Positions 5,695-25,463 of a DNA stretch of 64,000 nt are shown one piece after another. The notes beneath the pieces are model-generated. The model was not told where the DNA came from. It ran no database searches and saw only the letters and a program-made list of their open reading frames with translations. The DNA is from a virus. The translations under genes were made by a program, and so were the position numbers. The DNA is taken from positions 124,001 to 188,000 of the IMG/VR virus record IMGVR_UViG_3300042453_001086; one strand, given 5' to 3'. The stretch's first letter is position 1, and each line of letters opens with the position of its first letter.

Positions 5695-5723
5695 CGCCCC
5701 CTAGGCGATTAACCTAGAGGGCG
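5695..5723 (-). terminator. Probable terminator after the endonuclease gene
   Basis: CGCCCCCTAG (5695-5704) pairs with CTAGAGGGCG (5714-5723), with one mismatch and a 9-base loop. On the minus strand it is followed by TTTGTC, a short T-rich tract. Confidence 0.55.
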
Positions 5724-5749: not shown

Positions 5750-5775
5750 GCGAGTAGTATGGGTGAACTACTCGC
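5750..5775. repeat. Perfect 9-bp stem-loop
   Basis: GCGAGTAGT (5750-5758), loop ATGGGTGA, ACTACTCGC (5767-5775). It lies between the stop of the EcoRI-like gene and the terminator at 5695-5723, so it would be in the 3' untranslated RNA of that gene. Possible RNA-stabilising or regulatory hairpin. Confidence 0.6.
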
Positions 5776-5794: not shown

Positions 5795-6331
5795 CTAACC
5801 CTCGATGATGTTAGTGATAGTTTCGATCATAATGTCGCTCATCTCGTCAACACTGAAACCGTCAACTTTACAATGCAGGTTGTTAACGCCCACCTGAACT
5901 TCACCCATCACACCAAACAGTCCCTGGTGTGCAATGTGCAAGATACGATGAATCGGATTGCCAGCAGTTACACCAGTGCCAGATGCAAACGTAACGTAAG
6001 TTGCAGTGGGATTGATAGCACGAACGATGAAATTGTTTTTGTACCAGCGTTCGATTGCGTTGCCTTTATCGTTTTGTTTCTTACTCTCAAAGCAGGCAAT
6101 CAGTTCACCTTTGTAGAACCAAACCCCACCATCAGGGGCACACGATCCGATGCCACCAGGGATCTGAGATTGATCGAGTTTGGATTGTACAATCAGATCA
6201 GGATAGGTGCTGCTGAGAATGTTTGCCACATGAAACATTGCCGATTTGGCGTTATCATCCATCGCCTTAGACTGCTCATCAAATGCAGTCGTGCCAGGTT
6301 GAATGCCGCCTTTGAATGTAGTGTGGTGCAT
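5795..6331 (-). CDS. EcoRI-family restriction endonuclease homologue
   Basis: 178 residues from the ATG at 6331, which is about 20 bases downstream of a promoter -10 box (6354-6382); the longer open frame would start upstream of the transcript. Residues 66-69 are PDGG and residues 82-84 are ESK, matching the PD...(D/E)xK metal-binding site of EcoRI-type enzymes. GNAIER at 90-95 plus a following K-N matches a characteristic EcoRI segment. From family knowledge, EcoRI (277 residues) cuts GAATTC; this protein is much shorter, so the specificity is not assured. No cognate methyltransferase is adjacent. A role in degrading host or rival DNA is inferred. Confidence 0.7.
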   Translation of the reverse strand: MHHTTFKGGIQPGTTAFDEQSKAMDDNAKSAMFHVANILSSTYPDLIVQSKLDQSQIPGGIGSCAPDGGVWFYKGELIACFESKKQNDKGNAIERWYKNNFIVRAINPTATYVTFASGTGVTAGNPIHRILHIAHQGLFGVMGEVQVGVNNLHCKVDGFSVDEMSDIMIETITNIIEG

Positions 6332-6353: not shown

Positions 6354-6382
6354 AATGTATCAGGGGTGGGGGAGCATTGCAA
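6354..6382 (-). promoter_or_regulatory. Promoter of the EcoRI-like gene, -35 in a hairpin loop
   Basis: Minus strand: -35 TTGCAA (6377-6382), 17-base spacer, -10 TACATT (6354-6359). The -35 lies in the loop of a GGGGG (6368-6372) / CCCCC (6383-6387) hairpin. Confidence 0.65.
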
Positions 6383-6400
6383 CCCCCCTTGTGCCACTTC

Positions 6401-24412: not shown

Positions 24413-25252
24413 TTAGGAATACAACAAAATCTCGGTAGCGGGTTTAGCAGCGTATCCAGTACTGGTTTTCTTACGACGACCAGCAGTATATGTCACAGGA
24501 AATCTAGTAATGTTTAGGTCACCTTTCCTATCATCAAAAAATGTAGATCCATCACAACGGTTGCATAGAAGAACATGACCATCAATGCTTTTGGCATGTT
24601 CTATCAGTTCTTCAGTCTCTGTATCACCCCAGCTCGTACCATACTTAGTAAAACTATCACGATATGGTGGGTCAAAATAGTTTAAATCTCCAGTGGGGCA
24701 GTCTTTGTAATCACCACAATAGATCTCTACATTTTGCAACAACTCATGCCAAGCATATACCATTGCTTTATCATAGACTACATCTTTTTGATTCAATAGT
24801 CCTGCAGGAGTACCATATCTACCGTTAGTATTTTTATTGATCTGCCAGATGCCATTGAAACCTGTTTTCATCAGGAAATACAGTACTCCCGCTTCAAACT
24901 CTTTAGACCAAAACTTGTAATCATATGCATGAGTTTGACGAACTTCAAAAAAGTATTTCTTTCTATCTTCTTTAGACATAGGAATATACTTGCTCTGAAA
25001 AACATCTACAACATTGCAAAACTCATCTGGAGATTGTTTTACCGTTCGGTAAATATTTACAACACTTTCGTTGATATCATTGATATATGCCCGTTCGGGA
25101 TTATACTTCTGCATAACGTGCAGAAACATAGCACCACCACCAAAGAACGGTTCAGAATAACTGTTGACCGTTGATGGTAAATGTGGTGCATGGTATTTGA
25201 GCATTTTGGTTTTGCCACCTGCCCATATGAAAAGTGGTTTTAGTTTAGGCAT
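24413..25252 (-). CDS. dam: Dam-type (D12 class) adenine-N6 DNA methyltransferase
   Basis: 279 residues from the ATG at 25252 (ATGCCTAA overlap with the upstream stop; an ATG five codons earlier is also possible). The D12-class order is clear: 'FIWAGGKTKML' near the start, SAM-binding FFGGGAMF, 'INDINESVVNIYR', the 'TGFNGIWQIN' segment and catalytic DPPY. Enzymes with this set methylate adenine, usually in GATC. It would protect phage DNA from restriction or mark it; T4 has a homologous Dam. Confidence 0.9.
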   Translation of the reverse strand: MPKLKPLFIWAGGKTKMLKYHAPHLPSTVNSYSEPFFGGGAMFLHVMQKYNPERAYINDINESVVNIYRTVKQSPDEFCNVVDVFQSKYIPMSKEDRKKYFFEVRQTHAYDYKFWSKEFEAGVLYFLMKTGFNGIWQINKNTNGRYGTPAGLLNQKDVVYDKAMVYAWHELLQNVEIYCGDYKDCPTGDLNYFDPPYRDSFTKYGTSWGDTETEELIEHAKSIDGHVLLCNRCDGSTFFDDRKGDLNITRFPVTYTAGRRKKTSTGYAAKPATEILLYS

Positions 25253-25463
25253 CTTGACTGTCGCCATAAGTAGGTGGATGATACTTCAAATACTCAAAGA
25301 ATGTCAACTTCATTTCTTTTTGTGTCATACCGCAATGTTTAGCAGCTGCAGGAAGTGTCATTTTAGACTGAAACAGTCCTTCGTTTGCTTCTTTTACATT
25401 CTCTGGTGTAGTCTTTACAGGGATTTCGTATAAATCTACTTTATTGATTTTTAGAAGACTCAT
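25245..25463 (-). CDS. Small protein with helix-turn-helix-like segment
   Basis: 72 residues from the ATG at 25463. The segment 'MTLPAAAKHCGMTQKEMKLTFFEYLKYHPP' has the spacing of a helix-turn-helix (A..CGMTQ..M). It overlaps the methyltransferase start, so it may regulate or accompany it. DNA binding is an inference. Confidence 0.55.
   Translation of the reverse strand: MSLLKINKVDLYEIPVKTTPENVKEANEGLFQSKMTLPAAAKHCGMTQKEMKLTFFEYLKYHPPTYGDSQDA

Follow-up and report, generated by a model that had tools for sequence, protein, structure and literature searches.

A compact EcoRI-family nuclease of Synechococcus phages, its putative D12 methyltransferase partner and the avoidance of AATT in genomes that carry it

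The window analysed here, a stretch of 64,000 nucleotides of DNA from a virus of marine cyanobacteria, carries on its minus strand an ATG-initiated open frame of 178 codons plus a stop, encoding a protein of 178 amino acids. A GTG at 6397 is a possible earlier start that would add 22 residues; the homologues of this protein begin close to the ATG. The features considered were the following:

5695–5723, minus strand: strong intrinsic-terminator-like stem-loop of 12 pairs with a T-rich TTTGTC tail, found by scan.
5750–5775, minus strand: 9-bp hairpin GCGAGTAGT/ACTACTCGC downstream of the nuclease stop codon, read from the sequence.
5795–6331, minus strand: EcoRI-family nuclease gene, 178 aa, PHROG 2400, defined by the frame, the homologue alignment and profile comparisons.
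6047–6064, minus strand: GNAIER, residues 90–95, corresponding by alignment to the AATT-reading segment of EcoRI (G140–R145; PMC4081073).
6080–6088, minus strand: predicted catalytic Glu82-Ser83-Lys84 (ExK), with E82 and K84 invariant, within a predicted strand (76–85).
6131–6136, minus strand: predicted catalytic Pro66-Asp67, the PD of PD-(D/E)XK, invariant in 33 homologues and aligned with EcoRI P90-D91.
6354–6382, minus strand: promoter-like TTGCAA-17-TACATT with an extended –10 TG, 8/12, seen by eye and missed by a scan at 9/12.
24413–25267, minus strand: D12-class adenine-N6 DNA methyltransferase, 284 aa, the putative partner, recognised by PF02086 (2.7e-29) and by its identity to nuclease-adjacent enzymes.

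A first-pass annotation of this DNA had assigned to the nuclease gene a dedicated promoter, a 3′ hairpin and a terminator. Both downstream elements were found, at 5750–5775 and 5723–5695, respectively. As to the promoter, the scan revealed no minus-strand sigma-70 site at 9/12 for this gene, and only the 8/12 candidate read by eye (6382–6354) could plausibly fill that role.

The protein matched PHROG 2400, a family of unknown function, with an E-value of 4.9e-52. Homologues with 45–50% identity were found in 65 public phage records, all of them from Synechococcus phages, and others occurred at 54 IMG/VR loci, one of which (L001) encodes a protein identical to that of the window. A scan of genome contigs for cellular homologues gave pattern matches, none of which was confirmed. 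The order of motifs in the window protein, PDGG (66–69), ESK (82–84), GNAIER (90–95) and KN (98–99), is that of EcoRI, as had been noticed at first reading together with a length of about two thirds that of EcoRI (178 against 277 aa), and both observations held. In the alignment of 33 phage homologues, P66, D67, E82, K84, G90, N91, A92, E94 and R95 were unvarying and I93 was nearly invariant, so that the complete PD-(X)n-ExK catalytic motif (P66-D67...E82-x-K84) is preserved and is followed by a GNAxER recognition segment aligning to EcoRI 140–145. Such invariance across the alignment excludes a chance motif. The family, with dN/dS values of 0.06–0.16 in six pairs, is by this measure under purifying selection.

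Comparisons between profiles placed the protein closer to the EcoRI family than the curated libraries did. When the 33 phage nucleases were aligned by hhalign with a profile of six EcoRI-family proteins, including WP_217847105 of Paracoccus marcusii, the result was 95.4% with an E-value of 1.9e-8, and the corresponding values were 95.6% and 1.1e-8 against the Paracoccus protein alone and 60.8% and 8e-5 against EcoRI alone, all of these E-values being those of single comparisons and not of a database search. The EcoRI sequence used was confirmed against PDB entries. The Paracoccus enzyme, which lies above the Pfam EcoRI cut-off (2.5e-16) and adjoins a D12 adenine methyltransferase, was also matched by pairwise BLASTP (7e-6). 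ExK, GNAIER and PDGG were all in register in the alignments with EcoRI itself; in that with the Paracoccus enzyme, GNAIER and PDGG were in register and the ExK lysine less cleanly so. The window protein gave no match to Pfam EcoRI (PF02963), and 4 of the 33 homologues gave weak matches below its curated cut-off (best E 0.027). Searches with the single window protein returned chance matches only in Pfam and NCBIfam and weak matches only in PADLOC (best REase_II, E 0.013); a sequence search of the PDB returned nothing for this protein and one chance match for the profile. The similarity between profiles was strong, with E-values near 1e-8, and the Pfam cut-off was not reached.

Two AlphaFold models of the window nuclease (pLDDT 83.8) placed the ExK strand ahead of the GNAIER helix. 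In Foldseek searches of the PDB, the top match was the EcoT38I endonuclease for the first model (E 0.04, probability 0.63) and an unspecific one for the second (E 0.097); all best matches fell short of E 0.001, and EcoRI was absent from the top 50 for either model. Among viral models, the matches were the S-RIM2 homologue, an S-CAM1 protein (3.5e-4) and an S-CAM7 'restriction endonuclease' (7.7e-4). The residues of the DNA-embracing arms of EcoRI are located between ExK and GNAIER. This segment, of about 26 residues in EcoRI, is cut to 5 in the phage nuclease, where the arms, described for EcoRI in PMC4081073, are absent. Taken together, profiles and motif, as distinct from Pfam membership or fold, support the window protein as a compact EcoRI-family PD-(D/E)XK nuclease, and the original proposal of such an enzyme in a cyanophage was borne out by the profile comparison and by the relatives in Synechococcus myoviruses.

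Recognition of AATT was predicted for the phage nuclease because GNAIER reads the central AATT in EcoRI, whose Ala142, Asn141 and Arg145 are described as contacting this core (PMC4081073). AATT was thus expected before any count was made, and the first count, which covered palindromes in general across four genomes, was one in which AATT stood out. Relative to expectations from a Markov model, AATT was observed 186 times against 1156 in the genome of the window's phage (ratio 0.16), 190 against 752 in S-BM1 (0.25), 79 against 212 in 50 kb of S-RIM2 (0.37) and 45 against 80 in S-CREM2 (0.56), and it was absent from two further carriers, G012 (340 expected) and G014 (233 expected). Avoidance of the presumed site by carrier genomes, a criterion for type II restriction-modification, was therefore observed; it is reported for about half of the orthodox type II systems (PMC4687349).

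Observed-to-expected ratios ranged from 0.00 to 0.82 in nuclease carriers and from 0.78 to 0.98 in nine nuclease-free cyanophages (exact Mann–Whitney U test, 15 versus 9 genomes, p=1.5e-6, a value that overstates independence since the carriers share ancestry, the near-duplicates G014 and G051 having been thinned by hand beforehand). Seven of the nine controls gave no match in the profile search, and S-PM2 and S-SM2 were taken as nuclease-free on the ground that their hosts are not among the 65 matching records. Several genomes were sampled partially, over 20–100 kb. Two carriers, G048 (0.82) and G011 (0.75), presented little depletion and overlapped the lowest control (0.78); recent acquisition of the nuclease may explain these cases, by analogy with recently acquired restriction systems, which are reported to show less site avoidance (PMC4687349). 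Two other genomes, G016 and G017, were depleted in AATT with no visible nuclease, and they were removed from the controls since their contigs stop about 1.5 kb past the methyltransferase, before the expected nuclease region.

In a comparison of 52 nuclease loci with 76 gp20 control loci, which come from another region of the genome, AATT was the best separator among 136 tetramer classes (AUC 0.010). This comparison left out L001 (identical to the window), the duplicate L052 and the control loci L122–L125, the last four after their values had been seen, and their inclusion would slightly weaken the separation. L122, L124 and L125 (AATT 0.19–0.28) were dropped as likely carriers, their gp20 being 94–99% identical to that of S-BM1, and L123 (AATT 0.76) was dropped for a gp20 in the same identity range; the nuclease was not found on the 26-kb contig of L125. 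The depletion was also evident when synonymous codons were shuffled with the proteins kept fixed, which gave 147 observed AATT sites against 1105±23 in the window's phage, 141 against 775 in S-BM1 and 0 against 333 in G012, with ratios of 0.81–0.93 in four controls.

At the residual sites, A was enriched at the flank in the window's phage and in G016, and hardly so in S-BM1. A six-base site such as GAATTC was considered and rejected, as no flank-specific avoidance replaced that of AATT; the GAATTC target named in the first-pass annotation is thus probably too narrow, AATT being avoided whatever its flanks. GATC, considered given that the partner is Dam-like, was slightly rarer than expected in both groups (0.57–0.90 in carriers, 0.74–0.85 in controls) and did not track the nuclease. 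The specificity of the nuclease is accordingly best predicted, from genome composition and the recognition motif, to be AATT. Other palindromes were missing from particular genomes: CCGG from the window's phage, S-BM1 and S-PM2 (0 of 145, 142 and 23 expected) and CTAG from S-SM2 (0 of 75 expected), both possibly through restriction pressure, and GGTACC and GCATGC from the window's phage and S-BM1 (0 of about 19–33 expected each).

The nuclease had at first been regarded as a solo enzyme. No methyltransferase adjoins it in the window, in line with that description, but a linked one was found in most relatives and an enzyme of the same clade lies 18 kb away, at 24413–25267. The latter is 57% identical to the nuclease-adjacent enzyme of S-BM1 and 78.5% identical to that of locus L048, which also adjoins a nuclease. 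The methyltransferases of the window, S-BM1 and S-RIM2 have the segment KTGFNGIWQINKNTNGRYGTPAG in identical form, and the other members of the clade have it nearly unchanged; the position of this segment, by analogy with Dam, suggests that it sets the specificity of the enzyme. In S-BM1, the nuclease gene overlaps the D12 methyltransferase gene by 4 bp, and in S-RIM2 the two are separated by one DUF6551-like gene (phrog_2558, L011:8620-9672), homologues of which occur in 9 other nuclease loci. Among the 44 IMG/VR loci retrieved with the S-BM1 protein, a methyltransferase lay downstream of the nuclease in 38, immediately in 23 and about one gene away in 15; one of the six loci without it is truncated. 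Similarly, 64 public phage records held a methyltransferase at least 90% identical to that of S-BM1 and 65 held the nuclease, these being totals and not records matched one by one. S-CREM2 carries the nuclease with a more distant D12 enzyme three genes away, and a second, core D12 enzyme is present in both the window's phage and S-BM1.

Distances between nucleases and between methyltransferases were weakly correlated (Mantel r 0.30, with 435 of 5000 permutations as high), and locus L010 pairs a nuclease of the window type with a methyltransferase that has 94% identity to the L017 enzyme; judging from these sequences, nuclease and methyltransferase alleles reshuffle. No such methyltransferase was detected on the contigs, most of them short, of the other window-type loci (L001–L009). 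That the two genes were transferred together from bacteria was considered and found no support, the Paracoccus methyltransferase being only 22.8% identical to the phage one. From its clade, the methyltransferase at 24413–25267 would be the cognate partner of the window nuclease, and it presumably methylates AATT.

Other genes occur beside the nuclease in particular loci. Downstream of the pair in L010, a 185-aa protein with an NPPF motif (L010:5526-6083) matched EcoRI_methylase at 6.4e-4, below the cut-off. Where a methyltransferase is missing from the locus, the nuclease has beside it a DUF6267 gene whose product bears a KIDGAP ligase-like motif (L004:4082-4978, L005:3896-4813, L050:2381-3277 and L054:967-1863), as assigned by Pfam for the L004 copy and by sequence similarity for the other three. 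In S-CREM2, the gene beside the nuclease (L341:4296-6905) is annotated as a Cas9/Csn1 endonuclease virion protein.

In the two carriers with no AATT at all, G012 and G014, no D12 methyltransferase was detected on partial contigs of 112 kb and 74 kb, and the gene may lie in the missing part. It can tentatively be proposed that some phages run a restriction enzyme free of any methyltransferase, self being recognised by the total absence of AATT. In phages that lack AATT and have no visible methyltransferase, the nuclease gene overlaps by 14 bp a 2OG-Fe(II) oxygenase gene (L051:5509-6078 and L053:5509-6078; Pfam was run on the L051 copy).

The reading that we favour, with a probability of roughly 0.8, is that of an AATT-cutting EcoRI-type enzyme with two kinds of self-protection, site loss and methylation. 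The compact type II restriction endonuclease, predicted from its conserved residues to be active in cleavage, would be made during infection, as a dimer if EcoRI is a valid guide, and would cut unmethylated AATT. Its partner would be a D12-class adenine methyltransferase, encoded next to it in most relatives and at a distance in the window's phage. Loss of AATT sites would be the main shield of the phage genome, and any remaining sites would probably be methylated where the methyltransferase is present. Unprotected DNA containing AATT, most likely the host chromosome, would be cut about once per 0.8 kb at the AATT density of WH7803, which would release nucleotides and silence the host; co-infecting phages might be cut too. 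Action on RNA/DNA intermediates, suggested at first reading, found no support in the analysis.

The composition data are compatible with both host attack and the exclusion of rivals. An AATT-specific enzyme serving mainly to exclude co-infecting phages, and not to attack the host chromosome, would find ample targets in a potential rival such as S-PM2 (474 AATT in 50 kb) and a parallel in the restriction-modification of marseilleviruses, which is reported to spare host DNA and for which competitor exclusion was proposed (PMC7253447). However, the host too offers about 1.2 AATT per kb at the WH7803 locus tested. The T4 genes denA, denB and ndd are missing from cyanomyoviruses, for which breakdown of host DNA by a route not yet described has been considered (PMC2984593). 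In chloroviruses, host DNA degradation was ascribed to the viral endonucleases, which were found not to bring about exclusion (PMC7019647). Because of this gene content and the chlorovirus precedent, the host chromosome is mildly preferred as the main target, and exclusion as the principal role seems rather unlikely.

That the avoidance is due to a restriction system of the hosts, with the phage nuclease unrelated to it, is improbable. Cyanophages do avoid CCGG and GGCC regardless of the nuclease, as host restriction would produce, but a nuclease-free phage with normal AATT was found for the same host: S-PM2 presented a ratio of 0.98 on WH7803, in contrast to 0.25 and 0.37 for S-BM1 and S-RIM2, and a 21-kb WH7803 locus itself held 26 AATT against 25.9 expected. 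Moreover, the depletion goes with the nuclease in different lineages, among them S-CREM2 with its different host, and the avoided site is the specificity expected from the recognition motif of the enzyme. An inactive or repurposed homologue, for example one that only binds DNA, retained by drift, would agree with the lack of a significant PDB match for the model and with an activity so far read from sequence, but it is very improbable given the invariant catalytic and recognition residues in 33 diverse homologues and the low dN/dS, and it would leave the AATT depletion with no obvious cause.

Among known systems, the EcoRI family (PF02963; EcoRI, RsrI and WP_217847105) shares with the phage nucleases the PD...ExK order, GNAIER and profile-level similarity. 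Beyond its length and its longer ExK–GNAIER segment, EcoRI differs in recognising GAATTC, whereas phage carriers avoid AATT and not GAATTC specifically, and in having a methyltransferase of the EcoRI family as partner, in contrast to the D12 class of the phages, a class also represented by the neighbour of the Paracoccus enzyme. MunI is said to share the GNAxER motif, and library searches with the phage nuclease returned neither MunI nor MluCI. The sites of these two enzymes (CAATTG and AATT, respectively) are palindromes centred on AATT, a likeness of description and not of sequence comparison, and both have been grouped with EcoRI as possible mosaics (PMC4081073). The gp11 of S-CREM2 (WNL50930.1), a homologue from the phage family with 44.9% identity, is named 'restriction endonuclease EcoRI' in GenBank, and the assignment to this family thus predates the present analysis; the searched text of the S-CREM2 paper mentions neither EcoRI, ORF11 or gp11 nor specificity or self-avoidance. 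Chloroviruses and marseilleviruses likewise encode an endonuclease with a neighbouring methyltransferase, the former being described as attacking host DNA (PMC7019647) and the latter as possibly excluding competitors (PMC7253447), but their hosts are eukaryotic, whereas the present carriers are T4-like cyanophages with an EcoRI-type nuclease and are further set apart by the loss of the site across the virus's own genome. In the full-text literature covered, with most subscription journals and preprints outside its scope, no AATT avoidance or EcoRI-type module was described for cyanophages. What is new here is the predicted AATT specificity, the family-wide linkage to a methyltransferase and the self-avoidance.

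These observations suggest a function for PHROG 2400, hitherto unknown. The T4 genes that degrade host DNA are absent from cyanomyoviruses, and a review proposed that degradation is either inefficient in them or achieved by a method not yet described (PMC2984593); a phage-borne AATT endonuclease would be a concrete candidate for this activity in some lineages, testable in the isolated phages S-RIM2, S-BM1 and S-CREM2. The carriers also provide a natural gradient, in which a four-base site is lost in part or altogether and along which the self-protection of a virus from its own nuclease may be followed.
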